Origin: a virus
IMG/VR virus record: IMGVR_UViG_3300011432_000027
Location: 1 to 42,951 of that record
Reading direction: 5' to 3' (one strand)
Length of the DNA stretch: 42,951 nucleotides
Under the pieces are notes generated by a model that was not told where the DNA came from, ran no database searches, and was given only the letters and a program-made list of their open reading frames with translations. Of the stretch, positions 4,444 through 20,660 are shown piece after piece. The position numbers and the translations under genes were made by a program. Within the stretch, counting starts at the first letter, position 1. The number at the start of each line of letters is the position of its first letter.

Positions 4444-4660
4444 ACTGACTCCTCCGTAGACCCCACGCGGTCCAGCCGTAGCGGGTGTCATTGTCGAAGG
4501 TGTCGACACCTACGACGCGAACCTCGGCGAAGATGCTGGTGACCTTCGTCCCGTGTGGGAGTGCACCCAACTCATCGGGTGTGAGAAGATACACCGGGTC
4601 GGGATCTGAGCCCGACCACGGGTTCTCGGTGTGGAAGGACGATGGAGCGGGAAGGCTCAC
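4430..4660 (-). CDS. Small hypothetical protein
   Basis: A 76-residue protein with an acidic and proline-rich N-terminal third and a VYLLTPDELGALPHGT stretch, a wording often met in small phage proteins where a residue pair sets a beta-barrel-like fold. No family is assigned. The GTG start overlaps the stop of the dUTPase/dCTPase-like gene (GTGA), and its C-terminus overlaps the methyltransferase start, so it is part of the same leftward unit. Confidence 0.75.
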   Translation of the reverse strand: MSLPAPSSFHTENPWSGSDPDPVYLLTPDELGALPHGTKVTSIFAEVRVVGVDTFDNDTRYGWTAWGLRRSQFEGG

Positions 4661-5031
4661 GTACCCAACCTAGCCGTGTAGCCCTCACGCACCCGGCGAA
4701 AGTTCTCGGCCTGCTTGAGACGGTACCTCGTCCAGAACTCGCTCTCGGTGACGCCGACCGCGACGAGGATGTTGCCGATGAAGTGCGTCACATCCACGAG
4801 TTCCTCGGTGAGTGCGTCCTTGTTGACGCGACCCTGACCCTGTGACCACGGCTTCCAGTCGACCTCGCCCATGGCCTCACCCAGCTCGGCGAAGGCCGCG
4901 AGGAAGTTCCACCGTACGAACTCGGCCAGGGCCACGTCCTCGAGCGGCATCACGGTGTACCCGTGTTCAGCTTGAAGTTCCTGGGTCGACTGGAGCCACC
5001 GCCACTCATCGAGTGTGCGGTCACTCATCAC
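4657..5031 (-). CDS. dUTPase/dCTPase-like all-alpha NTP pyrophosphohydrolase
   Basis: A 124-residue all-helical protein with the metal-binding ExxE...ExxD pattern of the dimeric dUTPase/MazG superfamily: E49xxE52, then E77xxD80. After it comes the K..NF.R..GY tail (residues 106-118) typical of dimeric dUTPases and of T4 gp56 dCTPase/dUTPase. Such enzymes split dUTP or dCTP to the monophosphate and pyrophosphate. In T4-like DNA modification this removes dCTP and supplies dCMP to the hydroxymethylase. Substrate choice between dUTP and dCTP cannot be read from the sequence. The start is GTG at 5031 (GTGA overlap with the HTH gene) or the ATG right after it. Confidence 0.82.
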   Translation of the reverse strand: MMSDRTLDEWRWLQSTQELQAEHGYTVMPLEDVALAEFVRWNFLAAFAELGEAMGEVDWKPWSQGQGRVNKDALTEELVDVTHFIGNILVAVGVTESEFWTRYRLKQAENFRRVREGYTARLGT

Positions 5032-5324
5032 ACGACCGTTGGCGCGGGAGGTGTGGCGGGAATGTCCGGCTGGACGGGCGCGGCGGGTTCGTCACTCAGT
5101 GTGGCGCCGCGCTCGGGAAGCGTCACACCCAGGACCCGCTCAAGCGCCTCACGCTCGGACACGGTGGGCGTGCGCTGGATCTCGATGTTCGCGAGCTTCG
5201 CGACGGTGAAGCCCTCGATGCCCACCTGCTCCACGACCTGGGCGCGGCTCAGGTTGGCCTTCTCTCGCGCGGCACGGATCGCCGAAGAGAGGGTGTTCTT
5301 TGCATCAATGGACGTGCGGGGCAT
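5028..5324 (-). CDS. HTH (XRE/Cro-like) DNA-binding protein
   Basis: A 98-residue protein. Residues 10-65 resemble a Cro/C1 helix-turn-helix: IRAAREKANLSRAQVVEQVG supplies helices 1-2, and the later helices carry a KLANIE stretch. The C-terminal 30 residues are a proline/alanine-rich tail. It may regulate phage transcription; the palindrome at 1684-1699 is a possible but untested site. The ATG at 5324 is preceded by AAAGGA at a good distance. Downstream genes follow with GTGA overlaps, so it heads a unit with the dUTPase-like and methyltransferase genes. Confidence 0.75.
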   Translation of the reverse strand: MPRTSIDAKNTLSSAIRAAREKANLSRAQVVEQVGIEGFTVAKLANIEIQRTPTVSEREALERVLGVTLPERGATLSDEPAAPVQPDIPATPPAPTVV

Positions 5325-5359
5325 GTCTTGGTCCTTTCGTTGAATGGGACGACTGTACC
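5325..5359 (-). promoter_or_regulatory. Possible promoter and leader of the HTH gene
   Basis: Minus-strand TACAGT (5352-5357) fits the actinobacterial -10 pattern TANNNT and lies 27 bases before the ATG, leaving room for the AAAGGA ribosome site. No convincing -35 box is visible, so this is a weak call. Confidence 0.3.
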
Positions 5360-5953
5360 TTACACTACATCGAACCGTGCACGTGGCTCCCGCGAAGGTT
5401 CCCGACCCGAACCCATGTTGCGGTACCGAGCGCCCAGGTCCCCGTCGGGATGACCGGCCGCGAGGTCCATCACGGGTAAGTCATCACCGATCATGCACGC
5501 GATCGCCGTCACGTATGCAAGCTGCCCGTGAAGTGACGCAGATGGGATCGTGCCGTGCACACCACCCTCCCCCGGAATGACGTAGCGACAGACGACGACC
5601 TCGGGCGCCATCGGGTTGTGGGCACCTCCGGTAATGAGGACGTAGCGGCGCGTAGTCCGCAGAACGGTCAGAATCTCCTCCGTCAACCCCGAGTGCGACA
5701 GAGCAAGAATCGCCGGCCTTGGCGATGACCTCAGGACTGTCAGCCCGCCGTGCAGCAGGTTGGTCGCGTGGATCGGGATGGCGGGCCTCCCAACGGACTG
5801 GAGTAGGCTTGCCGCGAGGCGTGCCATGTCGTCGGACTTTCCGATTCCCGTGCACACGATCACGGATGAGTCGACGAGAAGTTGTTTCGTGTTGAACGCG
5901 ATCTCATCGGACACGGTTCCAAGTGCGGCGGTTGCGGCGGTTCGTAGGTTCAC
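5360..5953 (-). CDS. SIS-domain phosphosugar isomerase-like protein
   Basis: A 197-residue protein with a sugar isomerase (SIS) fold like that of arabinose-5-phosphate isomerase (KdsD) and GmhA. Visible are the phosphate-loop stretch CTGIGKSDDMARLAAS, the SHSGLTEE serine-rich loop near residue 104 and the second nucleotide-fold half after it. SIS enzymes interconvert ketose and aldose phosphates or bind such sugars. The GTG at 5953 overlaps the stop of the nucleotidyltransferase-kinase gene (GTGA), so the two are coupled. Together they resemble the first steps of making an NDP-activated sugar, as in heptose pathways. No CBS domains follow, unlike KdsD. The specific sugar is unknown. Confidence 0.82.
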   Translation of the reverse strand: MNLRTAATAALGTVSDEIAFNTKQLLVDSSVIVCTGIGKSDDMARLAASLLQSVGRPAIPIHATNLLHGGLTVLRSSPRPAILALSHSGLTEEILTVLRTTRRYVLITGGAHNPMAPEVVVCRYVIPGEGGVHGTIPSASLHGQLAYVTAIACMIGDDLPVMDLAAGHPDGDLGARYRNMGSGREPSREPRARFDVV

Positions 5954-7458
5954 CAGATGACCTCCCGTGCTCGGGCTCGGGCTGCGGTTAGCAGCCACTC
6001 ACGTTGACGTGCGGTGTGAAGGGGAACCGCCGCAAACAGCATGAGTGCCTCGATGATGTCAAGTTCACGCTTCGTCACCTCCGGGAACGGCGCCATGATC
6101 ACGTCATCGAGGGCCAGGTCTAGCTCGGGTGAAACGGTCGGTCCGATTCCGTGCTGATCGAACTCGTCGAAGTTGATGGCGGCGAAGTTGTCGGCGTACG
6201 AGTACCGCAGCTTGGCGAGGTCGTAGCGCACATCACCGGTGCCGGCGGGCATGCGTCCCCACGCACCGCGCGGGTCGACCAGCTTCACCGTCTCGGTGCC
6301 CAGGCTGAACAGCACGTTGCAGAAGTTCGGGTCACCGTGAATGTAGCGTGGAATGACGGTGTCGATGAGTTCTTCCTCGGCGACCTTGAGGAGGGCGATG
6401 TTCAGCGGAGTCTCCTCGACGCCGGCCATGACCATACGCTCCCGGGTCTTCTCCACGTACATGAGACGGGCTGACTCGGTCGCGCTGCTCTCGGGCGCCT
6501 TCACACCCCACGGCCCATCCCACATGAGGTCGACGACGGTTCGCATGATGTGTGTCCACGTGACGGTCGGGAGTTCCCAGTACAACAGAAGCTCGGCCAA
6601 TGTGGGATGATCGATGAAGTCTGTGATGATGCAGTCGGGCGTGCAGGTATGCACCTGCGGGATCAGCCACGGCCACTTGGTTCGGAACCACTCCCAACCC
6701 CGTGCCTCGGAGTGTAGGCCGCCCGGTCGGGCCGGGGTCTTCGTCATACGCCCGTACTCATCGAGGCTTAGGCGATGATGATCACGACGCACGAACATCT
6801 GACGTCGTGCGTCAGCGAGTGCACCCAGGTCACCGGCGTCCAGCCAGGTGGAAAGCATCAGCTGCGGAAGTTGCAGGTAGGTAAGTAGGGGAGCCATACC
6901 CTCGCCCTGGAAGCGTTGCCCCCGCACGCGAGCGACCGAGAACTGGTTGAGGAAGTACGCACCGATGCACACGGACTCGACGGTGTCGGTGTGCGGGACG
7001 CCGTCCACGTAGGCCCGCGGTGACACGGGGTAGCACCAGCTGCGGTACAGGTCAAGGGGAGCGCACACACCGCACACAGACTCTTCACGGGAGACGAGGG
7101 TGCAGACGTCGACCTCATCGAGCCACGTGTCGGCCATCATCACCAGCGCCTCATTGCCTGGGGGGACGTTGCGGACCCCGATGCAGAAGGCGTCCGCCGG
7201 TCCGCGTGGGTAGGGCTGCTCGGTGAAGACGATGGGCATGCGGTAGCCGCGCGTCATGTGGCGCACGGCCGTCTGCAGTGTGATGGAGTTCGGCGGGATG
7301 ACCATGATCACCTGGTCCGCGTTGACCGCGCGGGCGCGGGCGAGCTGGTGGGCGATCATCGGCTTCCCACCGACGGTCACCAGCGCCTTGTTGCCCTGGG
7401 CGAGCGGACCCAGGCGGGTCGCGAGTCCGCCGGCCATGATGACGACGCTAAGACCCAC
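5950..7458 (-). CDS. Bifunctional sugar nucleotidyltransferase / APH-like kinase
   Basis: A 502-residue fusion. Residues 1-230 form an NTP-transferase domain: MAGGLATRLGPLA at 8-20 is the signature loop that binds the nucleoside triphosphate, NKALVTVGGKPMI follows, and MMADTWLD supplies the metal-binding Asp. Residues about 290-500 resemble aminoglycoside-phosphotransferase/choline-kinase proteins: the catalytic loop HGDPNFCNVLF is near 374, and the metal-binding DPRG near 395 is followed by GD..YDLAKL, as seen in capsule-locus kinases. It would phosphorylate a sugar or small alcohol and attach it to a nucleotide. I start at the GTG at 7458, nine bases after GGAGGG. Neighbours: the SIS protein downstream, a glycosyltransferase-like protein upstream. 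Confidence 0.85.
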   Translation of the reverse strand: MGLSVVIMAGGLATRLGPLAQGNKALVTVGGKPMIAHQLARARAVNADQVIMVIPPNSITLQTAVRHMTRGYRMPIVFTEQPYPRGPADAFCIGVRNVPPGNEALVMMADTWLDEVDVCTLVSREESVCGVCAPLDLYRSWCYPVSPRAYVDGVPHTDTVESVCIGAYFLNQFSVARVRGQRFQGEGMAPLLTYLQLPQLMLSTWLDAGDLGALADARRQMFVRRDHHRLSLDEYGRMTKTPARPGGLHSEARGWEWFRTKWPWLIPQVHTCTPDCIITDFIDHPTLAELLLYWELPTVTWTHIMRTVVDLMWDGPWGVKAPESSATESARLMYVEKTRERMVMAGVEETPLNIALLKVAEEELIDTVIPRYIHGDPNFCNVLFSLGTETVKLVDPRGAWGRMPAGTGDVRYDLAKLRYSYADNFAAINFDEFDQHGIGPTVSPELDLALDDVIMAPFPEVTKRELDIIEALMLFAAVPLHTARQREWLLTAARARAREVIW

Positions 7459-8758
7459 CGATTCCCACCCTCCGCTCGATCTCGCACACGGCCTGCTTCT
7501 CGTCGGCGGCCTGCCGGTACCGACGATACTGCTCGCGCACCAGCCAGGTCCAGTCACTCTGCCCGGCCCGGGTGGAAAGGTGATCGACCCGCTTACGCAG
7601 GATCTCGGGCGTCGTCACGCGCAGCCAGTCACTCAGTGGGTCGTCCCGAAGTGGGATGACGTTGCCCTGGGTGTCATACTGCGGGTGAAAGAAACAGACG
7701 ACGCCCATCTTGAACGCCTCCCACGGCTTCGTCGTCGCCCAACCCGACCCCGATGACGGCGTGGTGAAGGTGCAGCGCGTGGAGTTGAGCATGGGCCACT
7801 GCTCTTCCCAGTCGATGGGAGTCACCACCCGGCCCAGGCGCGGCGCCGAAGTCTTCGACCACGTACCATGAACCCAGTCCGGGTCGAGCGGTAGAACCCA
7901 GTCGAGCATGGCCTGCAGCCGCGTCCACCGGATGCCGTCCTTGCGTGCCTCATTGATGACGATGCCGAACCGTACACGGTCCTCCCACGGACGAGGTTCG
8001 GTGTACTCGTCCGGGATGCCGACGATCTCGAGGCGGGAGTACGTGTAGTGATGCTCGGCCTCCCAGATGGTGTTGTCCTGCAGACTCTTCACACCGGTCG
8101 GCGCCGGCGCGGGATCGTAGTAGCGCCAGTGCTTCTGCCGGCGGCTCCAGTCGAACTGACACATGATGGACCCGGGTGGATGCTTGACGTCGCGCGCCTT
8201 GAGGTAGTTGCGCACGTCGGGACACAGCCACACCTCCTCGTGATCGTGGTGCGTGTCGCGCCACCGGTTCAGTCCGGCGATGATCGGGCCGGCGTAGTAG
8301 AGCGAGTCCTCGTGCGGCGTGGTGGTGACACCCGGCTCGGCGACCATCGGAATCGCCGAGTTGCTGGTGCCGTGCTGGCCCAGCCATAGGACGAGGCCGT
8401 CGAGGTCCTCGTAGGCATCCACCGACGCGTCGGCAAACACCCGGGCTGCGGCGATCGACCACTGCGCCCGCACCGACTTGTCACTCTCACCCATCTTAGG
8501 TGGCGGGCCGAGCGTCTCCTTGATGATTTTCTTCGACATGACGTCCCACTCGGTCCACGGGTTGGTGACGTTGTCCGGTAGGCCGGCCTCCACCGGTGAC
8601 TCCCGGGAGTTGCGTCCCACGATCACCCACTCGACCTCGGGGTTCCGACGTGCGAGTGTGTCGAGGAGGATCACCGGCTCGTTGTCGCCACCGACCTCAC
8701 CCCACTTGCGCGGGGTAAGCCCAATCGACCTTCCCAGCTTCGCGTAACCTATCCTCAC
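7448..8758 (-). CDS. Glycosyltransferase-like protein (probable GT-B fold)
   Basis: A 436-residue protein. The N-terminus (MRIGYAKLGRS, then GDNEPVILLDTLARRNPEVEW) resembles the first Rossmann half of GT-B glycosyltransferases. Near residue 330 the TTKPWEAFKMGVVCFFHPQYD stretch resembles the acceptor-donor loop and final helix of that fold (a conserved Glu after P-W in an EAF..G context). This would transfer a sugar from an NDP donor to an unknown acceptor: DNA, a virion protein or a cell-surface glycan. GTG at 8758 follows the TAA of the DUF669 gene by three bases. The family assignment comes from local motifs only. Confidence 0.65.
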   Translation of the reverse strand: MRIGYAKLGRSIGLTPRKWGEVGGDNEPVILLDTLARRNPEVEWVIVGRNSRESPVEAGLPDNVTNPWTEWDVMSKKIIKETLGPPPKMGESDKSVRAQWSIAAARVFADASVDAYEDLDGLVLWLGQHGTSNSAIPMVAEPGVTTTPHEDSLYYAGPIIAGLNRWRDTHHDHEEVWLCPDVRNYLKARDVKHPPGSIMCQFDWSRRQKHWRYYDPAPAPTGVKSLQDNTIWEAEHHYTYSRLEIVGIPDEYTEPRPWEDRVRFGIVINEARKDGIRWTRLQAMLDWVLPLDPDWVHGTWSKTSAPRLGRVVTPIDWEEQWPMLNSTRCTFTTPSSGSGWATTKPWEAFKMGVVCFFHPQYDTQGNVIPLRDDPLSDWLRVTTPEILRKRVDHLSTRAGQSDWTWLVREQYRRYRQAADEKQAVCEIERRVGIGGS

Positions 8759-8761
8759 GGC

Positions 8762-9502
8762 TTAGAACGGAGGCTTGGGCGGCTCGTCGACCGAGCCGGT
8801 CTGCGTCGGAGCAGGAGCCTGCTCAGGAGGAGCGGAGGAAGCCTGGGCCTGCTGTGCGAGAAGCTGCTGCAGCAACGCCTGCTGCTGCTCGGGCGTCATC
8901 CCGTCCACGCTCGTAGGCGGTGTAGATGACTGCGGCTGCGGTTCCGGCGACGGAGCCGACTGCTGCGGCTGCGGCGAGGGTGAGGGCGTAGTGGGCTGCG
9001 GCGCGGGCTGCGGTGATGGTGCGACCTCCTGCTGGGGCTGCGGCTGTGCGGCCGGAGCCGGTTGTGTCATACCCGCCTGGGGGATGACGCCGCTGGCGCG
9101 CATAAACTTCTTCACGCGGGTGCGGGTCTGTCCCTCGTACATCTCCTGCTCGGTCTCGATCTTCGCGTCACGGCCGGTCAATGCACCGGCGACCTGCTCG
9201 ATGGCCGGTCCGTTGGCGAAGAACTCGGGTCCCAGGCCCAGCGCGGTCATGTGTTGGAAGAAGAACCTCATCGCGTTCGGGCTGTCGGGAGTCAGGGTGA
9301 AGTTGTGCCACACCATGCGCCCGTCGGCGGGACCACCGAACACCTTGAACTGGGTGACGATCATGTCCTTGTCGCCGGCCTTCGTACGCTGCACCTTCGC
9401 GCTGATGCACTTCACGTCGTAGGTGCTGGGTGGGAGTGCCTCGAAGCCGCCGGCCTCGTTGGCCTCGTCCAGCAACTTCTTCCAGTCGTAACCTTGCGTC
9501 AC
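8762..9502 (-). CDS. DUF669-like single-strand-binding or recombination accessory protein
   Basis: A 246-residue protein. Residues 1-140 match the DUF669 pattern (Y-D-W-K start, PPSTYDVKCISAKV, VFGGPADGRMVW, then a DSPNAMRFFFQHM helix), which in phages accompanies Sak4-type ATPases and probably binds single-stranded DNA. Residues 145-240 are a low-complexity P/Q/S tail. The last residues, E-P-P-K-P-P-F, recall the acidic P-F tip of bacterial SSB proteins that docks partners, though it is less acidic. The gene ends in an overlap-free join with the glycosyltransferase-like gene and starts four bases inside the Sak4-like gene. Confidence 0.75.
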   Translation of the reverse strand: MTQGYDWKKLLDEANEAGGFEALPPSTYDVKCISAKVQRTKAGDKDMIVTQFKVFGGPADGRMVWHNFTLTPDSPNAMRFFFQHMTALGLGPEFFANGPAIEQVAGALTGRDAKIETEQEMYEGQTRTRVKKFMRASGVIPQAGMTQPAPAAQPQPQQEVAPSPQPAPQPTTPSPSPQPQQSAPSPEPQPQSSTPPTSVDGMTPEQQQALLQQLLAQQAQASSAPPEQAPAPTQTGSVDEPPKPPF

Positions 9503-10203
9503 CTGCTGACCTCCGTGTTGAAGATGAGTTGGAACAGCTTGGGAATGTCGGGGTTGTCTACCACCTCACCGAGGCGACCGGTTCGGTCACCCGCCTCGAA
9601 TGTGGGCTGAGGCGCCGTAAGCAGCCGGTGGTACGGCTGGCCGGTGGTGACGTCGTTCTCACGGTAGAGGTATCCGACGACGTCGATGTAGTACGGGAGT
9701 GTCGTGTACAGCTGACCCTGCACGTGGGGTGCGTATCGCCCATCCACCGCGCGGGTCATCGCCACGATGATGACACACTCGATCGGATGGGTGGGGTGGA
9801 AGGTCAGGTCACGGAAGTTCCGGACGAGTGATGCCATCTTACGCAGCAGCTCGCCCCAGTCCTGCTGCCGCATCTGGTTGCCGCCCGAGATGGCGTCGAT
9901 ACACCGCTGCTGGATCTCACTGATGCTGTCGAGGATCACCGATCGGAACGGATGTGCACCGTCCTGCAGCCACTGGTACACAAGCTCGAGGGTCTGGTAG
10001 TTCCGCACGTAGACGATGCAGTTCTCCCAGGTTCCATCGGGTACCGGCGGTGCGTACTGACTGGGGTCCCACTCGATGCGGTTGGGCAGGAAGCGTGTTC
10101 CACCCTCGGCGTCGAGGAAGAGCTTTGGCGCGGGGGCCGTCTCGGCCAGGCGTGTCTTACCCACCTTGGCGAGCCCGTGCACCAGCAGGGCCAGCGTGTC
10201 CAT
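9499..10203 (-). CDS. Sak4-like RecA-fold ATPase
   Basis: A 234-residue P-loop ATPase. Walker A is GLAKVGKT at 10-17; Walker B is VILDSISE near 88-95; a later VIIVAMTR strand fits the RecA-like core. Size, order and neighbours (DUF669 and a Cas4-like nuclease) match the Sak4 single-strand annealing/recombinase set of phages. It would act on single-stranded DNA in recombination and repair of replicating phage DNA. ATG at 10203 follows GGAG at a good distance. The upstream nuclease gene overlaps it by 47 bases in another frame, an unusually long overlap for this genome. Confidence 0.82.
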   Translation of the reverse strand: MDTLALLVHGLAKVGKTRLAETAPAPKLFLDAEGGTRFLPNRIEWDPSQYAPPVPDGTWENCIVYVRNYQTLELVYQWLQDGAHPFRSVILDSISEIQQRCIDAISGGNQMRQQDWGELLRKMASLVRNFRDLTFHPTHPIECVIIVAMTRAVDGRYAPHVQGQLYTTLPYYIDVVGYLYRENDVTTGQPYHRLLTAPQPTFEAGDRTGRLGEVVDNPDIPKLFQLIFNTEVSR

Positions 10204-11194
10204 CGTCTAGGTCTCCAGTTCTTCCGGGAATCGAAACACTATCACGGTACGTGTGCCGCGCGTCTACCCGAACGTGGGTACGCTGCACCAGGTCGCGCCA
10301 GCGAGAGCCGTCGTCCATCATGTGACACATGTCGAAGAAGTCACACTGCCACGTGCACGTGTCGTTCACGTTCGGCGGCGTCACGGTACGATGATCCCAC
10401 CCACGGGTTAGGTCATCCTCCGCGCGGAAGATCTGCCGCAATGTGCCGTCCACCGCGTACCAGTATGAGCGAAGGTCGTCCGGGTTGAAGCGAACCTCCT
10501 CACGCCCGTAGAACGGTGGCTTCGCGGAGGCGGTACGCTTCACCTTTCGGAGCATGTTGAACAGCGCACCCACGGTCACCCCGCCGCGCAGCCGGTCGAG
10601 CATCGTGTAGTGCTTGAGCTGGGTGTTCATGTGCAACGTCTCTTGCTTGAGTGACTGCACCGTCTTGTGGTCGAACAGCAGGTGCACACCCGACGACACC
10701 CGGCGGATCAGCAGGTCGAGCGTGCCGCTGAGGTACACGGTACGCCCGCCGATGCCGGCGGACACAGTCACCCGCTCCTCCGCCGAGATGGGTTCGATGT
10801 CCTCGTCGGCACCGGTCTCGGCCAGCCACTCGTTGTAACCCTCCATCATTCGCCGCTCGAGGTCGAACTCGTTCTTGAGTTCCTTCACATCCTCGTCGGT
10901 GTAGGCGAGAAGGTGCACGTCACCCTCGACCTGACCGATGCGCTGGGTCATCGTCTGCATGTCCACTGCCTGGGCGTCATCCAGCGCCTTCAGCCCGGCC
11001 TGGGCGCGCCACTCGTACGGGAGCTCGGGCGTGTAGTGCGCGGCGAGTGCCAGGTGGATGCGCGTGCCGATGCGACGGATGCCGGTCACCTGCTCGACGG
11101 GCAGACGCAGGCCCTCCCAGTATGTGAGATACCACTTGCGGTTGCACCGTCGCCACGTTGCCAGCTCGGAGTGGGAGACGTACCGGTCAGACAC
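10157..11194 (-). CDS. PD-(D/E)XK nuclease, Cas4/RecB-like
   Basis: A 345-residue protein with the Cas4/RecB-like arrangement. The N-terminal helix holds Cys17 (TWRRCNRKW) and a RIHLALAAHY helix. The nuclease core has SGTLDLLIRR followed by LLFDHKTVQS (the D...DxK metal and lysine residues). Three C-terminal cysteines are in CTWQCDFFDMC. One N-terminal and three C-terminal cysteines usually hold a 4Fe-4S cluster in Cas4 and AddB. It likely trims DNA ends for the Sak4-like ATPase. GTG at 11194 overlaps the upstream coiled-coil gene by 8 bases. Confidence 0.85.
   Translation of the reverse strand: MSDRYVSHSELATWRRCNRKWYLTYWEGLRLPVEQVTGIRRIGTRIHLALAAHYTPELPYEWRAQAGLKALDDAQAVDMQTMTQRIGQVEGDVHLLAYTDEDVKELKNEFDLERRMMEGYNEWLAETGADEDIEPISAEERVTVSAGIGGRTVYLSGTLDLLIRRVSSGVHLLFDHKTVQSLKQETLHMNTQLKHYTMLDRLRGGVTVGALFNMLRKVKRTASAKPPFYGREEVRFNPDDLRSYWYAVDGTLRQIFRAEDDLTRGWDHRTVTPPNVNDTCTWQCDFFDMCHMMDDGSRWRDLVQRTHVRVDARHTYRDSVSIPGRTGDLDDGHAGPAGARARQGG
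10236..10244 (-). promoter_or_regulatory. Extended -10-like element before the Sak4-like gene
   Basis: Minus-strand TGATAGTGT carries a TGn extension plus a TANNNT hexamer (TAGTGT, 10236-10241). It lies inside the upstream nuclease gene, 32 bases before the ATG at 10203. The bases CGTGATA match two similar elements near 19.3 and 20.7 kb. No clear -35 box is seen. Confidence 0.3.
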
Positions 11195-11381
11195 GGTCCT
11201 TGGCCTCCTTGGCTACCTGCTTGAGTGTATCCACGTGCACCAAGAGCTTACTCATCGCGGCCATGATGCTCATCAAGCGATCGCACAGGTCGAACAGCTG
11301 CAGGATCTGCTGACGCTGCAGCACCACCTTCGCCTCGAGTACCTCAAGTCGTTCCTCGGTCGTATTCACGGTAGGATCCAC
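11187..11381 (-). CDS. Small coiled-coil protein
   Basis: A 64-residue protein. Residues 8-60 form heptad-like repeats (ERLEVLEAKVVLQRQQILQL), so a coiled coil is likely. The GTG at 11381 has no clear ribosome site, and a second in-frame GTG lies four codons later, so the exact start is uncertain. It sits back to back with the only plus-strand gene, whose ATG begins two bases away, so their promoters must overlap or lie within each other's genes. Confidence 0.65.
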   Translation of the reverse strand: MDPTVNTTEERLEVLEAKVVLQRQQILQLFDLCDRLMSIMAAMSKLLVHVDTLKQVAKEAKDRV

Positions 11382-11383
11382 TC

Positions 11384-11659
11384 ATGCGCAGAATCATCAT
11401 CACACTCACCCTCATGCTCGCTAGTGCGCTCGGCTTCACGGCACTCACGGCGGGTGCGCAGACGTCGCCTCCGCCTCGCGTGTCGGTCGGCATCTCCATC
11501 GATCAGCGATCTGGTGCGCCGACCGAGACGACCATCGACTGCGGCAAGGATGGCAGGTTCTCGACCGTGAACGGTGACGGCACCCTGTTCATGGAGAACC
11601 GTGAACCGCACAAGATGCTGTGTCAGATCACGATTCGGCGTGTAGGAACGCTTACGTAA
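11384..11659 (+). CDS. Small secreted protein, the only plus-strand gene
   Basis: A 91-residue protein with a clear signal peptide: basic MRRI, a hydrophobic core to about residue 20, small residues TAGAQ around 22-26. The mature part (about 65 residues) has two cysteines, near positions 52 and 79, that may pair outside the cell. Third codon positions are GC-rich as in true genes here, and the minus-strand reading of the region is arginine-rich and shadow-like. An AGGA lies eight bases before the ATG; TAGGAT (11372-11377) six bases before the ATG could also be a leaderless -10 box. Its orientation suggests a separately controlled cargo gene. Function unknown. Confidence 0.72.
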   Translation: MRRIIITLTLMLASALGFTALTAGAQTSPPPRVSVGISIDQRSGAPTETTIDCGKDGRFSTVNGDGTLFMENREPHKMLCQITIRRVGTLT

Positions 11660-11661
11660 CC

Positions 11662-13434
11662 TCACGCCGATAGCACCGCCTTCAGCCACGTGCGATCACG
11701 AACGATCTCCTCGAGCATGCGGGCCTTGTCATCCAGCCGGTCGATCTGCTTCTCGTCCTCCACCGTGTCGCGGGCGATGACGTCGATGATGAGGACGTTC
11801 TCGTGACCCTCACTTCCGATGCGGTGCACACGGTCCTCGACCTGCTTGTTATCGAGGTTGCTCCACGACCGTTGAAGGCGAACGAGAATGCGTGACCGGG
11901 TAAGGCTGATCCCGACGCCCCCGGCCTGAATGGTCATCAGCATCACCCGCAGCCGACCGGCCTGAAACTCCTCGATGTACTGATCACGCTCGGCCGTCGT
12001 GTCCGAACCGGTGATACGCCCGTATGAGATCTTCGCCCTGTCGAGACGTGCGGCGCAGAGGTCAATGAGCTGCCGTGACACCGCACACACGACGATGGGC
12101 TCGTCCTCGGGAAGTTCCTCGAGGATGTCCATCAGCTCGTCGACCTTCGGTGACGGCTCACTGAGGATGATCTTGTCCCTGTCGTTCTCTTGCGGCTCAA
12201 GCGCACACGTGGCTGAGGCGAACTGCATCAGTCGTAGACCCTGGGTGAGCGGTGACGTGGCGTAGATGAGGTCACCGTTCTCCATCTCGGTGAGCATCTT
12301 GTCCTTGAACTCGTTGTATGCCTTGCGGTGCTTAGGCGGTAGGTCGATCATCCGCACCTGCGGGACCTTGGGCGGCATGTTCTTGAGCACCTGGTCCTTG
12401 GGCATGCGGCGGAAGCGCGGGTCGAAGATGCGAAAGAACTCGTCACGGTTGCGCGGGTCAAGCCCGAGGATCTCCAACCCACCGAACCGGTTGAAGCTCT
12501 TCATCGTGTAGCGCTCGATGTAGGCGGTCTTACGTGGAAACTCCTCGGGCGCGACGAAGTGCATGATCGACCACAGGTCATCGGGTGCGTCGGCGATCGG
12601 TGTTCCCGTGAGGGCGATGCGGTACTCGACGGTGGGTTGCCGTCCCACCGCCCACAGGGCGCGGGTCTGCGCCGTGCGTGGACTCTTCGCCTTGTGTGCC
12701 TCATCTGCGATGACTGCCTTCAACTGCAGGGCGTTCAGCTCCTTGGACACCTTCTCCGAGTCCTTGAGGCTGATGGACCCGTACGGCGCAAGGCGTGTGT
12801 GCAGCCTCATCGCTTCCCAGTTAATGACGTACACATCGGCGGGTTCCTGCAGCTGCTTGCGCCGCTTCGTCGCCCCACCCTCGATGATGGAGACGACGCG
12901 GTGCGGCGCCATGCGGGCGTACTCCCGCCGCCACGCTCGTTTCACCGAGTTCGGCGTCACCACGAGTGCAGGGTAAGCGTTGGCTGCCTCGAGCGCGGCG
13001 ATGGTGGTGGCCGTCTTACCGGTGCCCATGTCGTCGGCGAGCAGGGCGCCGTGTGCGACGTACAGGAACACGGCACCCGGCCGCTGATGGGCGAAGAGTC
13101 GCTGCTCGGCATCCTCGAGGTCCGCTTCGAGGGCAAGCAACGGCGTCGTCCACTCGGGGTAACCCGCGAGCGTCGTCTTACCCCGCAACCACATGCACGG
13201 GTCGACGCGGTGCTGCCGTTCGTAGGCGGCCCACCCACCGAGCCTCTCACTTACCTCGAGGCGATGGTCGAAGACGCCGCGCAGCGCGAGGCACGAACCC
13301 CACGACAGCGGGAGCTTCCACTCACCGGGTGTGGCAAGTACCGCGCCCGGCACGTTGCGGATCAGCGGCGCCTCGGTGTAGTTGACGAAGACGGTGATCG
13401 CATCGTCACCCTCGAGGTAGTCGGCCCTCGCCAC
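11662..13434 (-). CDS. SNF2-family DEAD/DEAH-box helicase
   Basis: A 590-residue two-lobe helicase. The first lobe has DMGTGKT (Walker A, residues 135-141), VVTPNSVKRAW (motif Ia), VIADEAHKAK (DEAH, motif II) and IALTGTPI (motif III). The second lobe has VCAVSRQLIDL, a QAGGVGISLT stretch (motif V) and VEDRVHRIGSEG (motif VI, arginine finger). About 100 residues precede the core. SNF2-like proteins move double-stranded DNA and remodel bound proteins; in phages they accompany replication and recombination genes. GTG at 13434 abuts the stop of the upstream zinc-knuckle gene. It converges with the plus-strand secreted gene with two bases between stops. Confidence 0.92.
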   Translation of the reverse strand: MARADYLEGDDAITVFVNYTEAPLIRNVPGAVLATPGEWKLPLSWGSCLALRGVFDHRLEVSERLGGWAAYERQHRVDPCMWLRGKTTLAGYPEWTTPLLALEADLEDAEQRLFAHQRPGAVFLYVAHGALLADDMGTGKTATTIAALEAANAYPALVVTPNSVKRAWRREYARMAPHRVVSIIEGGATKRRKQLQEPADVYVINWEAMRLHTRLAPYGSISLKDSEKVSKELNALQLKAVIADEAHKAKSPRTAQTRALWAVGRQPTVEYRIALTGTPIADAPDDLWSIMHFVAPEEFPRKTAYIERYTMKSFNRFGGLEILGLDPRNRDEFFRIFDPRFRRMPKDQVLKNMPPKVPQVRMIDLPPKHRKAYNEFKDKMLTEMENGDLIYATSPLTQGLRLMQFASATCALEPQENDRDKIILSEPSPKVDELMDILEELPEDEPIVVCAVSRQLIDLCAARLDRAKISYGRITGSDTTAERDQYIEEFQAGRLRVMLMTIQAGGVGISLTRSRILVRLQRSWSNLDNKQVEDRVHRIGSEGHENVLIIDVIARDTVEDEKQIDRLDDKARMLEEIVRDRTWLKAVLSA

Positions 13435-13728
13435 TTAGGCGTTCACCGCGACGTCCACGCCGCGCGCCCACGTCGCGCGCCACCAGGACATCGAGTGCCG
13501 CTGCGCGTCGCGGTACCCATCGGGGTGCACGTACTGCGGGCTGCTGATCCGCTCGCCCGTGGTGCGTGAGAACTTGTCGTACCGAAGAGTCCCACACCGC
13601 GTGCACCGCAGACACACCAGCGTTCCGAAGTCCGGCCGCCGGTCACCGGCGCCGATCGGGTCCCAGGCGTGGCGCAGCGCGCGGCACGTGACGAATGCAT
13701 CATTCCTACCTCGACGTGTCTGAGTCAT
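13435..13728 (-). CDS. Small Cys-rich (zinc-ribbon-like) protein
   Basis: A 97-residue basic protein with Cys15, then CxxCxxC at 39, 42 and 45, followed by GTLRYDKFSRTTGE, a common actinophage small zinc-binding pattern. A role beside the helicase and resolvase genes is likely but unproven. ATG at 13728 follows AAAGGGT. The same region (TGATAAAGT, 13736-13744) also fits an extended -10 box seven bases before the ATG, so the transcript could be leaderless or read-through from the resolvase gene. Confidence 0.8.
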   Translation of the reverse strand: MTQTRRGRNDAFVTCRALRHAWDPIGAGDRRPDFGTLVCLRCTRCGTLRYDKFSRTTGERISSPQYVHPDGYRDAQRHSMSWWRATWARGVDVAVNA

Positions 13729-13733
13729 ACCCT

Positions 13734-14201
13734 TTACTTTATCATCTCGAGAACGCGCCGATCTCCCTGATTCACGAGGAACAGGAGCAGATGTCGGAGT
13801 GCGTCGCGGGCGTGCTCATTCTTGTCGTACAGCTTCACCTGGCGAAGACGATCGTTGGTGACGAACCGCTTGGCGTCACCGGGCGCCTGCAGCGGTGCGA
13901 GCAGGCACCTGTACTTGCCGGCCAGGTACCGTAACGCCCCGATGATCTCCATGCTCGAGGGCTGCTGGGAAAGCTGCGCGGTCTTCTCGGTGACGGTGAA
14001 TCGCTCGACGACGATGATCGCCTTGTGCTGTCGCCACCGCATCCAGTCCTCCGCCCGTCCGACGAACCGCTGCTGGTCGTCGTCCATGCCCGACTTGATC
14101 TCGAGCTTGGGCAGGTAGCAGTCGGCCCAACCTGTGTGCTCACCCGGGTCGACGGCGAGGATGTAGTCGAAGTCAGATAGGCGAATCGGGTTGCTCGTCA
14201 T
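13734..14201 (-). CDS. RuvC-like Holliday junction resolvase
   Basis: A 155-residue RNase H-fold protein of RuvC type. Acidic residues are at the expected places: Asp18 in AVDPGEHTGW, Glu66 in IIVVERF and Asp133 in EHARDALRHLL. RuvC-like phage enzymes cut four-way junctions and branched DNA before packaging. It is shorter than cellular RuvC, as is usual in actinophages. The ATG at 14201 lies 29 bases inside the DNA polymerase gene and has only a weak ribosome site, so translation may depend on the polymerase ribosomes. Confidence 0.85.
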   Translation of the reverse strand: MTSNPIRLSDFDYILAVDPGEHTGWADCYLPKLEIKSGMDDDQQRFVGRAEDWMRWRQHKAIIVVERFTVTEKTAQLSQQPSSMEIIGALRYLAGKYRCLLAPLQAPGDAKRFVTNDRLRQVKLYDKNEHARDALRHLLLFLVNQGDRRVLEMIK

Positions 14202-16008
14202 CGGTGTAGAACGCGGAGTTCACCTCCTGCACGAGGTCGGCGGGAACACCTAGGACGTCGCCCCACCGGGTGAGCGGTTCAGAGCACTCGACCTCGATGG
14301 GGATGTGAAAGTTGGTGCGATCCTCCATGATCACCCGCGCGCGGTTCGCGAGTTCTGCTCGTCGCTCGGGATCCTCGGCCGACACCTCGAGCAGGATCTC
14401 GTCGTGCACGGTCAGCAGCAGTCCCCGCTCGAGGTCCGGGTCGGCGGCCAGGTCGACGAGCTGACGCTTCATCACCTCGGCCGCGGTACCCTGGATGAGG
14501 TAGTTCACCAGGGCGTACTCCTTGCCCGGGTCCGCACGCTGCACGCGACCCAACGGCGTCTGCACGTAGGCGTACCCAAGCTCGGCCTTGCGGCTCATTC
14601 CGACCTGGGTGACGCGACTGATGAAGCCACGCACGCCCGGGAACAGGTCGTCGTACCGGTGCTGGAACTCACGGGCGACGTCCAGTGGCACACCGGCCGT
14701 GAGTGAAAGCTTTGCGGTGCCGGCGCCGTAGATGCGGGCGAACCCGGTGTGCTTCGCGATCTGACGCTGACCCTTCGTCGGCACGTCCACACCGTACGCG
14801 AGCTGCGCGGTGAAGGTGTGAAGGTCCTTGCCCTCCCGGATCGCACGAATCATCGACGGCTCACCGGCGAAGTGTGCCAGCAGCCGCATCTCGATCGCCT
14901 GACAGTCGAGGCTGTACAGCAGGTGCCCCTCACGGGGAATGAACGCGTCCCGCACCGTGCGACTGGTCTTGGGCAGGGTCTGCAGCGCGGGTCGCTGGAT
15001 GGACATGCGTCCGGTGCGTGCACCCATCTGATTGATGGACGGGTGCACCACACCCTGAACCGCATACTCGAGCAGGTTCTGGAAGTAGGACGACGCAAGC
15101 TTTTGACTCTTCCGGAAGCGATGGATGGCGCGGGAGAGTGGGTGATCGATGCCCAGCAGCACATCCTCATCGAGGGCGTACTGCTTGCCGGACTTCGTTC
15201 GCTTCTCGAGGACGATACCCTCCAGCTCCAGTGCACGGATGCACGCCGCGTTCGAGCCTAGGTTTCGGCACGAGTACCGATCGGCCGCCCACGCCTGCAG
15301 CTCCTCACCGTAGGCCAGCAGCTTGGTGTTCATCTGATCGCAGTACGGGAGGTCGACCCGCATGCCGGTTCGCTGCATCGAGGCGATCACGCGTGCACAC
15401 GCCACCTCGAGCTGGTATGCGTTCATCGCGTTGGCCTCGAGGAGCTTGGGCAGCAGGTCCTCACGCAGGTAGTAGGTAAGGACCGGGTCCACGCCCGCGT
15501 AGGCCCAATACTCGGGCAACTTCACCGGCACGGTGGCGAACGTCCACTTGCCCACGCCCATGGCGTTCTTCAGCAGCATCTCGCCGGCGCTCGCACGCGG
15601 ATCGATGAGTCGTGAACCTACCATCTTCAGTGCGGTGGATCGCGTCGAGTCGAGCACGTGGATCATCGCCCGCGTGTCGTCCACCATGCTCCAGTCGAAC
15701 CGGTAGTCACACTCGTTCTCGATGAAGCTGATGTCGAACGGGCTGTTGTGAAATGCCATTCGCCGGCCGTGCCAGCGCTCGAGCACCTCGACGGCAAGGC
15801 CACCCCACTGGAACCACGGGATGACCCACCCGGCGGTCGCATCACCGAACTGCACGAGGCGCAGCTTGTCACCGGTGTGTGGGTTCAGCCCGGTCGTCTC
15901 GGTGTCGCACGCAAGCACGGGTCTCGGCCGCTCGAGCCAGTCCAGCAGCCGGTTGCAGTCGGCTGTGGATTCCACCAGTTCGATGCGGGTGTCAAGCGGG
16001 ATCGGCAT
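14173..16008 (-). CDS. Family A DNA polymerase with 3'-5' exonuclease domain
   Basis: A 611-residue replicative polymerase of Pol I type without the 5' nuclease domain. The proofreading domain has DTETTG at 35-40 (Exo I), FHNSPFD near 87 (Exo II) and the YAGVDPVLTYYL stretch near 170-181 (Exo III). The polymerase domain has motif A around Asp368 (LDCQAIEMR), motif B with RQIAKHTGFARIYG at 415-428, and motif C VHDE at 534-537. In motif A the usual D-Y-S-Q-I-E reads D-C-Q-A-I-E, a variant pocket that may matter if modified dNTPs are used. ATG at 16008 overlaps the deaminase gene by 17 bases. Confidence 0.95.
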   Translation of the reverse strand: MPIPLDTRIELVESTADCNRLLDWLERPRPVLACDTETTGLNPHTGDKLRLVQFGDATAGWVIPWFQWGGLAVEVLERWHGRRMAFHNSPFDISFIENECDYRFDWSMVDDTRAMIHVLDSTRSTALKMVGSRLIDPRASAGEMLLKNAMGVGKWTFATVPVKLPEYWAYAGVDPVLTYYLREDLLPKLLEANAMNAYQLEVACARVIASMQRTGMRVDLPYCDQMNTKLLAYGEELQAWAADRYSCRNLGSNAACIRALELEGIVLEKRTKSGKQYALDEDVLLGIDHPLSRAIHRFRKSQKLASSYFQNLLEYAVQGVVHPSINQMGARTGRMSIQRPALQTLPKTSRTVRDAFIPREGHLLYSLDCQAIEMRLLAHFAGEPSMIRAIREGKDLHTFTAQLAYGVDVPTKGQRQIAKHTGFARIYGAGTAKLSLTAGVPLDVAREFQHRYDDLFPGVRGFISRVTQVGMSRKAELGYAYVQTPLGRVQRADPGKEYALVNYLIQGTAAEVMKRQLVDLAADPDLERGLLLTVHDEILLEVSAEDPERRAELANRARVIMEDRTNFHIPIEVECSEPLTRWGDVLGVPADLVQEVNSAFYTDDEQPDSPI

Positions 16009-16534
16009 CCACCCACTCCTGCGGGCGAATGCCCGCCTTCATGAACGCCTCTCGGAACTCGGTGAGTGCACGGTACACGACGACCCGCAGCCCAGACTTC
16101 TCCATGTAGAGGATCGACTTCTCGGGTTCACGGTCACGGTCGTGTGCACCGACCGAGCAGACGACACCGAAGAGCCCGGAGTTCGCGAGCATCTGCGAGC
16201 AGGTGTAACACGGACAAGTGTTGCAGTACGCAAGTCCGCCCTTGCGTGCCGAGGCGTCGGAGTACAGCAGTGCGTTGGCCTCGGCGTGAATGGCGACGCA
16301 GTCGGCGTACGAGCGCGGGTCCTCGGGCGGTGCCATTCCGCGCGGGCACCACGCACTGCAGTCATCGTCCTGATGCAGGTTGCGAAACCCCGCAGCCGGT
16401 CCGTTGTACCCGGTTCCGATGACGCGGTTGTCGTTGACGATGACACATCCGGCCTGCCGGCGACAACACGCCGATCGCAGTGCGATGAGGTCCACGACCG
16501 TAAGCCACGTCTCACTCCACGATGGGCGGATCAT
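15992..16534 (-). CDS. dCMP deaminase
   Basis: A 180-residue zinc deaminase. The catalytic H-A-E is at 83-85 (IHAEANALL) and the zinc cysteines are in NTCPCYTC (Cys109, Cys112). RPSW near the N-terminus and GTGYNG are typical of dCMP deaminases. It converts dCMP to dUMP, feeding thymidylate synthesis, and in T4-like modifying phages it balances dCMP against the hydroxymethylase. ATG at 16534 overlaps the coiled-coil gene stop (ATGA). Confidence 0.92.
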   Translation of the reverse strand: MIRPSWSETWLTVVDLIALRSACCRRQAGCVIVNDNRVIGTGYNGPAAGFRNLHQDDDCSAWCPRGMAPPEDPRSYADCVAIHAEANALLYSDASARKGGLAYCNTCPCYTCSQMLANSGLFGVVCSVGAHDRDREPEKSILYMEKSGLRVVVYRALTEFREAFMKAGIRPQEWVDADPA

Positions 16535-16740
16535 CCGACGATCGTCCGGATCTGCAGCAGTGCGTCACGGTGCCGCTGCACCGTCATCGACGTGAACGCC
16601 GTGGTGAACGCCATGGCCTCATCCACGGCCTTACGGATCTTCTCAAGGTCACGATGATGACGCGCAAGCTCGGCACGCGCCTCACCAAGCTCGTACATCA
16701 GCTGGTCGCGGGTCATCTCACCGAGAGCGTCCTCGTCCAC
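16531..16740 (-). CDS. Small helical protein
   Basis: A 69-residue protein, strongly helical, with charged heptads in residues 5-50 (EARAELARHHRDLEKI). No family is recognised. It lies between the thymidylate-synthase homologue, which it overlaps by 28 bases, and the dCMP deaminase (ATGA overlap), so it belongs to the nucleotide-metabolism unit and could be a partner of either enzyme. Confidence 0.72.
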   Translation of the reverse strand: MDEDALGEMTRDQLMYELGEARAELARHHRDLEKIRKAVDEAMAFTTAFTSMTVQRHRDALLQIRTIVG

Positions 16741-17516
16741 CAGTCCTCCTTCTCACACTTGCCTTCTAGGTAAGAACGGGCGATCTGCACAACGATGTCC
16801 CACGACATGCCCGGGTCACCGATACCCGCGGGCAGGTTGTACTGCATCTCTTGCGGGTGAAGCTTGGTGGTGGCCTCGAGGTCACGGTCGTACAGGTGCA
16901 GGCTGCGGGCGTGGTGCGTGTACGTTCCCACGGGTACGTCGAGGACGTTGGCGACCGTGTGCAGTAGGTGTCCGAAGATGAAGAAGTCGTAGGGAACTCC
17001 GAGCCAGATATCGTTCGAGCGCATCGTCACGTCGAGGTCGAGCCGTCCGTCACGAATAAAGAACTGCAGGCTGCTGGTGCATGGGAGGTCCCTTGCCGCC
17101 GGGGTATGCAGGTCGCGGAAGTTGTCCCACAACGACACCTGCGCCTGCCTCGTGTACGGGTCGCGTCGCAGCAGGTCGACGACGAGTGGCAGTGCCTCCC
17201 GGGTTCGCTGCCCGTAGCCGCCGTGGAACGCCTCGCCGTCGAGGATCTCCCTGAAGAAGGGACTCAGCTTCACCATCAGCTCGGGCATCTGCACACCGGC
17301 GACGAGCTGTAGAAACTCAGCGGCGGCGATCGCCGTGGAGACGTTGCGTCCCTGGGCGAGTGGCAACGCATCCCACGGGCGTTCGGTAATCGCGATCATC
17401 ACGTTTCGTTGCTCGTAGGTGAGGTGTCCCCGCACGTTGACGACGAACCCACCGGAGACATACTTCACGAGTTCGGCGTAGCCGTCCCGCATCGACGGAA
17501 ACTCGAACGTCATCAC
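16713..17516 (-). CDS. Thymidylate-synthase homologue, predicted dCMP hydroxymethylase (or methylase)
   Basis: A 267-residue ThyA-fold enzyme. From the catalytic Cys146 (LPCTSSLQF) to Tyr209 the sequence aligns with E. coli ThyA without gaps and with the same numbers. Arg166 and Asp169 (MRSNDIWLG) and His207/Tyr209 are kept, but ThyA Asn177 is Asp here (GVPYD, codon 16986-16988). That Asn recognises the uracil ring; Asp is the residue in T4 dCMP hydroxymethylase, and the N-to-D change is known to turn thymidylate synthase towards dCMP. The enzyme is therefore predicted to add a one-carbon group (hydroxymethyl, or methyl) to C5 of dCMP. GTG at 17516 overlaps the kinase stop (GTGA) and follows AGGAGG. 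Confidence 0.88.
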   Translation of the reverse strand: MMTFEFPSMRDGYAELVKYVSGGFVVNVRGHLTYEQRNVMIAITERPWDALPLAQGRNVSTAIAAAEFLQLVAGVQMPELMVKLSPFFREILDGEAFHGGYGQRTREALPLVVDLLRRDPYTRQAQVSLWDNFRDLHTPAARDLPCTSSLQFFIRDGRLDLDVTMRSNDIWLGVPYDFFIFGHLLHTVANVLDVPVGTYTHHARSLHLYDRDLEATTKLHPQEMQYNLPAGIGDPGMSWDIVVQIARSYLEGKCEKEDWWTRTLSVR

Positions 17517-18430
17517 CGGGGCCATCCTCCTAGGTCGATCTCGGCCCGCCGCTGGGCCAACGCCTGAATCAGTTCGCCGTACCTGCGTTTCATCTTGTGG
17601 TGGAAGCGTCGCACGTACTGCGGGTGAGGCACCGTCGAATGCGGTACGTTGTTCAGCTTGGCGACCCGCTGCGCGTTGCGCCCGAGGCAAACGACGGGTG
17701 GACACTCAAGGATCTTCCACAGCTGCTCGACGTTCTCTTCACACGCGTTGGCGATGCCGATCCGCTGTCCGAAGGACGGTGTCAGCGCCTCGAGGAGGAA
17801 GTGACCGGACGTCGCGTTGAACGGAACGAACGCCGACTCGTACTCAGCTGGACTGTTGCGGGTGTCACCCAGAAGAAGTGCACTAGGACGGAACCCACCG
17901 ACGTAGGTCGGGAAGTCCACCAGCGGTGCGCACATCTTGTCACGGTACCGGGCGAAGTCATACACGTCGGCCAGATCGAGAGGTGTTGACTGATGATCAC
18001 TCCATCCGGTGAGGGCGAGAAGACGGTAGTCCGCGATGATGTCGGCCAGGTTCTTCTGCTTGATGAGGTCATCGCCGCGGGTCTCAAGTCGAAACCTGAT
18101 GACGTCGAGCCGTTCACGCATGATGATCACCACTGCACCACGTGACTGGAGGAAGAGGTGGATGTGTAGGAGGCGTGCGTCATCAAGCTTGCTCTCACCG
18201 CGCAGCAGTGGGCCGTACACCCGCTCACCCAGGTGCAGTCGGTCGCAGATTACGTGCTGTCGCGTCCCGGGTCGATACCACTGCAGGGCAAGCTCGTACT
18301 CCTCGAGCGGGTCCTTCTCGATCGGACCGAAGTGAAGCACGGTGGCACCACGTAGTGCACCACGCTGGGTGAGCTTCCGAACGGCGGTCGTCTTACCGCT
18401 TCCATCAGGACCTTCCAACACGATCAGCAT
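17513..18430 (-). CDS. dNMP (thymidylate-like) kinase fused to a UDG-like domain
   Basis: A 305-residue protein. Residues 1-160 resemble dTMP kinases: P-loop GPDGSGKT at 7-14, CDRLHLGERVYGP as the DR motif near 62, and an IIMRERLDVIRFR helix. Residues about 170-290 resemble the uracil-DNA glycosylase fold: LLLGDTRN, PFNATSGHFLLEAL, GIANA, PPVVCLGRNA and a final VPHPQYVRRF. The catalytic acid of known UDG families cannot be placed with confidence, so the second domain may bind rather than cut a base. The kinase could phosphorylate dTMP or a modified dCMP as T4 gp1 does. ATG at 18430 overlaps the HNH gene by 7 bases. Confidence 0.78.
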   Translation of the reverse strand: MLIVLEGPDGSGKTTAVRKLTQRGALRGATVLHFGPIEKDPLEEYELALQWYRPGTRQHVICDRLHLGERVYGPLLRGESKLDDARLLHIHLFLQSRGAVVIIMRERLDVIRFRLETRGDDLIKQKNLADIIADYRLLALTGWSDHQSTPLDLADVYDFARYRDKMCAPLVDFPTYVGGFRPSALLLGDTRNSPAEYESAFVPFNATSGHFLLEALTPSFGQRIGIANACEENVEQLWKILECPPVVCLGRNAQRVAKLNNVPHSTVPHPQYVRRFHHKMKRRYGELIQALAQRRAEIDLGGWPR

Positions 18431-18921
18431 GACTTAGGCCACCGTCCACGCGCACTTGCTGTTGCATGTTTAGCCTTCTTCTCAGGGTCAGCCCAATGTG
18501 CACGCATCGCGATACGACGTTTCTCGTTCGCTTCGGGTGTATGAGCAGCTGCATCCATCTTGGTACGGAATGTGCCGTCATCGTCAGCCCAACGCTTACC
18601 TGTTGCTGCACCTATTGCAGCACGGGCGTTAGGTCGCGCCATAGCGTCTTGCCCACCGCGCTTACTGTTGCAGTAGAAGTGTAAGACGCGAAGATTCGAT
18701 GGATGATCGGTACCACCGTCACTGATGTTGATGATGTGATCTATCGAGAGGGCGAGCGGGTTGCGTGCTCCCTGCTCAAATGCCCGTGACTCAAATAGGC
18801 AGTCTTCCCACATACACTCGAGCTTCGGCACATACCCAAGTTGGTGAAGGGCGAGCACCAGCATTCGTACCCATACCCTTTTGGGTCCACCTGCCACACG
18901 GGCAAGCTCTTCCTCGAACAT
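18424..18921 (-). CDS. HNH homing-type endonuclease
   Basis: A 165-residue free-standing nuclease. A CMWEDC zinc knuckle (Cys36, Cys41) precedes SIDHIINISDGG (Asp61-His62), HPSNLR (Asn76) and VLHFYCN (His81, Cys84, Asn85). The C-terminal 75 residues hold basic repeats resembling NUMOD-type DNA-binding modules (EKRRIAMRAHW). GC content is roughly ten points lower than in the polymerase gene, so it looks recently arrived. Homing endonucleases often sit beside thymidylate-synthase and polymerase genes. ATG at 18921 follows GGAG. Confidence 0.88.
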   Translation of the reverse strand: MFEEELARVAGGPKRVWVRMLVLALHQLGYVPKLECMWEDCLFESRAFEQGARNPLALSIDHIINISDGGTDHPSNLRVLHFYCNSKRGGQDAMARPNARAAIGAATGKRWADDDGTFRTKMDAAAHTPEANEKRRIAMRAHWADPEKKAKHATASARGRWPKSC

Positions 18922-20654: not shown

Positions 20655-20660
20655 GGCCGC

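Follow-up and report, generated by a model that had tools for sequence, protein, structure and literature searches.

A predicted cassette for arabinosyl-hydroxymethylcytosine in the DNA of an actinophage

In the virus record IMGVR_UViG_3300011432_000027 of IMG/VR, whose entire 42,951 bases (64% G+C) constitute the window analysed here, we have identified a set of actinophage genes predicted to introduce 5-hydroxymethylcytosine (hmC) into DNA and to cap this base with arabinose. Taking all steps together, we regard arabinosyl-hmC as the final base with somewhat better than even confidence. An earlier note, based on the letters and reading frames of this DNA, had proposed the synthesis of hydroxymethyl-dCMP followed by glycosylation of DNA. 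To this proposal our comparisons add a candidate for the DNA glycosyltransferase (GT), putative RB69-type sugar genes beside it, a predicted cassette related to about 280 loci and, as a further member, a protein resembling C5-cytosine methyltransferases (C5-MTase). The gene parts named in the earlier note are all intact reading frames on the minus strand, which carries almost all genes of the record and all cassette and GT-like genes described below. From position 18430 downwards, the order is kinase, ThyA homologue, dCMP deaminase, polA, RuvC-like protein, helicase, PD-(D/E)XK nuclease, RecA-like protein, DUF669 protein, GT, a nucleotidyltransferase-kinase (NTK), a SIS protein, a helix-turn-helix protein, dCTPase and C5-MTase-like protein. 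Stop and start codons overlap between the genes of the kinase and the ThyA homologue and between those of NTK and SIS, and the ends of the GT and NTK genes overlap too.

The identity of the base is suggested by the ThyA homologue (16713-17513; Pfam PF00303, E = 1.3e-18), a predicted deoxypyrimidine hydroxymethylase of the dCMP type. Its open reading frame extends to 17705, and translation probably begins with the ATG at 17513, which overlaps the stop codon of the kinase. The closest relative, from Actinomycetia phage DSL-LC01, shares 39% of its residues. When aligned in the numbering of E. coli thymidylate synthase (TS), the protein contains Asp177 and Thr147, as do T4 gp42 and the homologues of RB69, XG4, Planchet and DSL-LC01, whereas these positions are occupied by Asn and His in TS and by Asn and Asn in the homologues of Ackermannviridae and Yuavirus. 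The dCMP-type aspartate recognized in the earlier note aligns with Asn177 of the E. coli enzyme. In a metagenome study, no other positions distinguished contigs with modified cytosine from unmodified ones as well as these two (PMC8670742). The catalytic and folate-site residues Glu58, Cys146 and Asp169 are kept, and so is Tyr209. All four are found in 55 of 55 TS homologues from related loci that were fetched by GT or NTK alone, loci from the TS scan being left out of this count since that scan itself selects for Asp177. The enzymes of RB69 and a Yersinia phage instead carry Phe58, Asn169 and Phe209. Trp80 is lost in the ThyA clade of the window, with Phe in 62 of 67 members, and likewise in the homologues of Ackermannviridae and Yuavirus. 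With the latter, and not with RB69, the protein is placed in a phylogenetic tree with low deep support, while its best sequence match in the PDB is 9iqu, which agrees with the RB69 protein in the displayed part of the alignment. From these features, 5-hydroxymethyl-dCMP is the likely product of the enzyme and hmC very probably the base of the phage. The reading of the earlier note thereby appears to withstand comparison with TS, with dUMP hydroxymethylases and with the RB69-type 5-hydroxy-dCMP synthase. Relatives of the Ackermannviridae and Yuavirus homologues make bases derived from 5-hydroxymethyluracil. A corresponding hypermodification of thymine was considered and rejected, as these homologues combine Asn177 with Asn147 and the window Asp with Thr.

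Glycosylation is ascribed to the gene at 7448-8758, a likely DNA glycosyltransferase of GT-B type and predicted DNA arabinosyltransferase, whose assignment is based on a family profile and a predicted fold. The protein has no match among Pfam, PHROG and PADLOC models. A profile of 52 relatives searched against the PDB retrieves T4 DNA beta-glucosyltransferase (BGT) with an E value of 6e-4, the sole other match being at 0.18. For the AlphaFold2 model (pLDDT 90), T4 BGT occupies Foldseek ranks 1-6 and leads the VIA-align comparison (Z 23.8 over 314 residues at a root mean square deviation of 3.7, with the next family at 19.8), which defines a GT-B fold with BGT (GT63) as nearest solved structure. 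Within the nucleotide-binding domain, Arg280, which is invariant in the 52 relatives, and Glu347 align with Arg195 and Glu272 of BGT, which we take to be its UDP-binding residues. An equally invariant D181-x-R183 follows a strand as D100-I-R, with the catalytic Asp100, does in BGT, a pairing that is not placed by sequence aligners, the MAFFT placement of BGT in the N-terminal domain being unreliable. The gene is situated in the replication and nucleotide operon, and in scanned bacterial and archaeal genomes, where the search is limited to relatives with a short peptide pattern in common, we find a single match, on a contig of a Flavobacteriaceae metagenome-assembled genome with the same cassette. 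The earlier note had left unknown which of its GT-like genes acts on DNA, and we consider glycosylation by the BGT-like protein quite probable.

The two genes next to the GT are homologues of the arabinose-activation genes of RB69 and therefore lead us to predict arabinosyl-hmC. The NTK (5950-7458, with the open reading frame extending to 7557; Pfam NTP_transf_3) listed in the earlier note as nucleotidyltransferase-kinase, consists of a sugar nucleotidyltransferase fused to an APH-like sugar kinase. It keeps the nucleotidyltransferase signature, contains an HGD...N...DPRG phosphotransferase motif that is invariant in the alignment, and matches RB69 ORF53_52c and Yersinia phage proteins. The SIS protein (5360-5953, with the open reading frame extending to 5998), likewise listed there under sugar activation, is a homologue of RB69 ORF055c and belongs to the KpsF/GutQ type of D-arabinose-5-phosphate isomerases (NCBIfam GutQ 5e-11, KpsF 9e-11). 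Such isomerases are its nearest relatives in PHROGs, in the PDB, where the top three entries are phosphosugar or arabinose-5-phosphate isomerases, and in NCBIfam. Lys54 takes the position of the catalytic Lys59 of KdsD, of which PDB entry 2xhz is presumably the K59A mutant. The window thus contains both the NTK fusion and the SIS protein of the RB69 set. In RB69, ORF53_52c and ORF055c were proposed to make UDP-arabinose (PMC6024577). Homologues of RB69 ORF050c and of UDP-galactopyranose mutase (UGM) were not found in the window. In some actinophage-like relatives, this slot directly behind the same GT is occupied by a member of the RGP family, which we take to be known for UDP-arabinopyranose mutases, and two unrelated donor modules would in this way point to arabinose. 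Since other relatives contain different donor modules, namely a nucleotidyltransferase without kinase, a short-chain dehydrogenase/reductase (SDR) or, in DSL-LC01, UGM, the sugar probably differs between phages. Matches to 'epi1' beside other copies of the GT were not read as arabinose enzymes, as they are generic SDRs nearest to GDP-fucose synthase. For the phage of the window, the neighbouring genes make arabinose, and not the glucose of T4, a reasonably probable sugar.

The remaining partners would complete a T4-like route, and those named in the earlier note are recovered by profile searches. An all-alpha dCTPase/dUTPase (4657-5031; Pfam PF08761 dUTPase_2, E = 9e-11), which in BLAST matches its relative T4 gp56 (E = 2.5e-8), would destroy dCTP and dUTP. 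The dCMP deaminase (15992-16534; Pfam PF00383, E = 2e-14; 44% identical to its DSL-LC01 counterpart) would convert part of the dCMP to dUMP, feeding dTMP, while the ThyA homologue would use dCMP and methylene-tetrahydrofolate to generate 5-hydroxymethyl-dCMP. Latter would be converted to the triphosphate by the dNMP kinase (17513-18430; PHROG thymidylate kinase, E = 4e-15) together with a nucleoside-diphosphate (NDP) kinase of the host, and incorporated into DNA by the family A polymerase (14173-16008; Pfam PF00476, E = 5e-65), whose use of the modified dCTP we infer. In parallel, the SIS enzyme would isomerize ribulose-5-phosphate to D-arabinose-5-phosphate for conversion to NDP-arabinose by the NTK. 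No phosphatase for this route was found in the record, and the host may supply the enzyme. The BGT-like transferase would then attach arabinose to hydroxymethyl groups in DNA, thereby protecting it from host nucleases. The kinase model shows a kinase fold (pLDDT 95), its list of fold matches covering residues 1-173 only. The C-terminal domain (17513-17920), unmentioned in the earlier note, weakly matches the uracil-DNA-glycosylase (UDG) superfamily of Pfam (E = 0.011), contains invariant LG..A and HPQ..RRF motifs and has no match among PDB sequences. It is kept in actinophage-type relatives, whereas the short kinases of other cassettes are devoid of it. Directly upstream of the kinase, we find a gene for an HNH endonuclease (18424-18921).

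The described organization is not confined to the window. Scans with TS, GT, NTK and the C5-MTase-like protein have identified about 280 related loci, many of which are near-duplicates, so that the following counts do not represent independent events. Among 27 GT-anchored loci flanked by 5 kb in either direction, the C5-MTase-like gene is present in 23, NTK in 22 and TS in 18. The 39 NTK-anchored loci contain a HAD protein in 35, the C5-MTase-like gene in 33, TS in 30 and GT in 26 cases, and where loci anchored on the C5-MTase-like gene include enough upstream DNA, they carry a cassette GT (56/56) and dCTPase (55/56). Since the C5-MTase-like proteins of the relatives are 13-46% identical to that of the window, the cassette is not one recent clone. 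These patterns suggest a conserved cassette of constant synthase, dCTPase and C5-MTase-like genes with an exchangeable sugar-donor module.

The C5-MTase-like gene (2875-4509; Pfam PF00145), which lies outside the region covered by the earlier note (4657-18430), is a constant partner of the cassette. In a PADLOC scan, its product alone gives a match, to Type II methyltransferases. All 120 non-identical members compared have the catalytic Cys, the motif VI Glu and the Arg-x-Arg of motif VIII. The cofactor pocket is altered, with the residue following the catalytic Cys (Gln82 of M.HhaI, motif IV) being Ser or Ala and the Asn of motif X (Asn304 of M.HhaI) being Lys or Gln, each in 120 of 120 members. 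Both M.HhaI residues lie in motifs described as common to all C5-methyltransferases, and their shortening improves the transfer of bulky groups (PMC10666283). The protein, encoded by a phage predicted to destroy dCTP, may methylate residual cytosine, act on hmC itself or assist the GT as DNA-binding helper. That it catalyses a new step of hypermodification and not the methylation of ordinary cytosine is a tentative proposal, which we consider rather doubtful. In such a step, the protein would either form its Cys-C6 adduct on a cytosine already substituted at C5 (hmC itself or glycosylated hmC) or employ a larger cofactor, and in DNA it would extend, replace or take off the C5 substituent. The result would be a chemically new final base, common to many environmental phages. 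A sharp question is why an enzyme of this kind is conserved where C5 of cytosine is predicted to be already occupied.

Among rival explanations, two concern the chemistry of the base. If the ThyA homologue would directly hydroxylate dCMP, arabinose would be attached to 5-hydroxycytosine and the methylene group be absent. This would agree with the RB69-like sugar-activation genes and with 9iqu as best PDB sequence match. It would also agree with the arabinose linked to 5-hydroxycytosine in RB69-like phages, which in RB69, according to PMC13390438, is made via a TS-family 5-hydroxy-dCMP synthase and is not arabinosyl-hmC as once proposed. We nevertheless regard such chemistry as unlikely and prefer hydroxymethylation, because Glu58, Asp169 and Tyr209 are kept in the window and its 55 relatives in place of the RB69 residues, which we infer to cause hydroxylation. 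The placement in the tree, with its low deep support, and the resemblance of the GT to BGT, an enzyme of hydroxymethyl acceptors, argue in the same direction. The least probable reading assumes, on the model of Xanthomonas phage XP12, that 5-methyl-dCMP is the product of the enzyme and that the sugar genes have another purpose. A TS with Asn177 mutated to Asp does form this product (as cited in PMC8670742), yet in the clade of the window Trp80 is lost in the same way as in the Ackermannviridae and Yuavirus homologues, and the TS gene and a DNA-GT-like gene are conserved together and in synteny.

Two other rivals concern the sugar. The same pathway might cap hmC with glucose, galactofuranose or another NDP-sugar, in line with the use of UDP-glucose by T4 BGT, the UGM at the syntenic slot of DSL-LC01, the variety of donor modules in other relatives and the activity of SIS enzymes on other sugar phosphates. 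We assign to this case a minor but real probability, as three libraries assign the SIS protein to the arabinose-5-phosphate type and as it is paired with an RB69-type activating enzyme. Very unlikely, in contrast, appears a combination of ordinary nucleotide metabolism with glycosylation of virion proteins or the host envelope. The GT-like cluster at 19293-26103, beside structural genes, would fit such a role better than one on DNA, and the authors describing DSL-LC01 took its UGM for a cell-wall gene (PMC10611076), but the protein at 7448-8758 has the fold of a DNA glucosyltransferase and lies among replication and nucleotide genes, and plain dTMP synthesis would account neither for Asp177/Thr147 nor for a dCTPase. 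Several observations weigh against arabinosyl-hmC as final base. The SIS match is below the Pfam gathering score; the HAD protein that accompanies NTK in RB69 and marine loci is absent from this possibly partial record and from other SIS loci; and the window contains no homologue of RB69 ORF003c, the candidate arabinosyltransferase. Moreover, neither acceptor nor nucleotide-sugar specificity of a BGT-like fold can be read from sequence, and the C5-MTase-like partner has no explained place in the pathway.

The proposed arabinosyl-hmC pathway would join the acceptor and transferase half of T4 to a sugar half of RB69 type. With the T4 pathway (gp42, gp56, gp1, beta-gt), it has in common the dCTPase, dCMP deaminase, dCMP-type residues, dNMP kinase and a BGT-like GT-B transferase. 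Unlike T4, the window has a family A polymerase, a ThyA homologue of another subfamily than gp42, arabinose-type donor genes, a kinase fused to a UDG-like domain and the C5-MTase-like partner. With the arabinosyl-hydroxycytosine pathway of RB69 and Mosigvirus (ORF53_52c, ORF055c, ORF048c, ORF003c) it shares the SIS isomerase and the NTK fusion, whereas RB69 has a synthase without Glu58 and Asp169, a HAD protein and another GT. In Enterococcus phages 9183 and Planchet (Denvervirus) and Pseudoalteromonas phage XG4, the TS homologue adjoins the NTK and BGT-like GT pair, with HAD in place of SIS, for which reason their sugar could be another than that of the window. XG4 encodes a T4-like gp42 (50% identical to T4) and a C5-MTase-like gene, the latter being absent from the 33 kb examined in Planchet. 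In DSL-LC01, the stretch that begins with the kinase and ends with the RecA-like gene is ordered alike, and the TS and C5-MTase-like proteins belong to the same subfamilies, with other GTs and UGM replacing the GT-NTK-SIS genes. A testable DNA glycosyltransferase and base are now named in actinophages, relatives available as isolates carry part of the cassette and make key predictions accessible to experiment, and the cassette logic with exchangeable donors predicts more DNA sugars.

Individual phages offer further observations. For XG4, the unannotated record (L003, 100-7552) encodes in one run a T4-like dCMP hydroxymethylase, HAD, NTK, BGT-like GT, a second GT-like protein, a C5-MTase-like protein and a gp56-like dCTPase. 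The genes annotated as 'glycosyltransferase' and 'hypothetical protein' in Planchet and 9183 (L002, L005) encode NTK and BGT-like GT next to a dCMP-type TS, and glycosylated hmC is predicted for these isolated phages. In DSL-LC01 (L004, 23035-29369), UGM and two GTs take the place of the sugar genes at the syntenic locus, for which reason this UGM may serve the galactofuranosylation of DNA, despite the cell-wall role assumed by its authors. In Gordonia phage Troje (L297, 2506-3354), a gene annotated as ThyX is a ThyA homologue with Asp177 and Thr147 but without Glu58, located near MazG, kinase and deaminase genes, and possibly a further cytosine modifier.

The cluster at 19293-26103 adjoins structural genes and comprises five GT-like and two SDR sugar-nucleotide genes, as assigned by PHROG and Pfam matches, the SDRs being nearest to dTDP-glucose 4,6-dehydratase in NCBIfam. 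It is not tied to DNA. Of the six GT-like genes of the earlier note, the one at 25009-26103 is supported by a PHROG profile (E = 1.5e-34), 22019-23023 weakly so (E = 0.002) and 7448-8758 by family profile and fold, while those at 19293, 20747 and 21481 stand on motifs only. Homologues of the two SDRs and a GT-B-like gene (22935-26103) are found near the C5-MTase-like gene in several relatives (including L213 and L221), on the strand opposite to it.

The assignment to an actinophage, made in the earlier note, is well founded, since the 366 database relatives of the major capsid protein are nearly all from actinobacteriophages (of Gordonia, Mycobacterium, Microbacterium, Streptomyces and Arthrobacter), the best match being DSL-LC01 at 46%. 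A megablast search of the first 24 kb of the window against phages gave no match. As the record is classed as linear and the genomes of the capsid relatives measure about 100-195 kb, it may be a genome fragment. Near its beginning, it encodes a DUF932 protein (683-1675, E = 7e-56).

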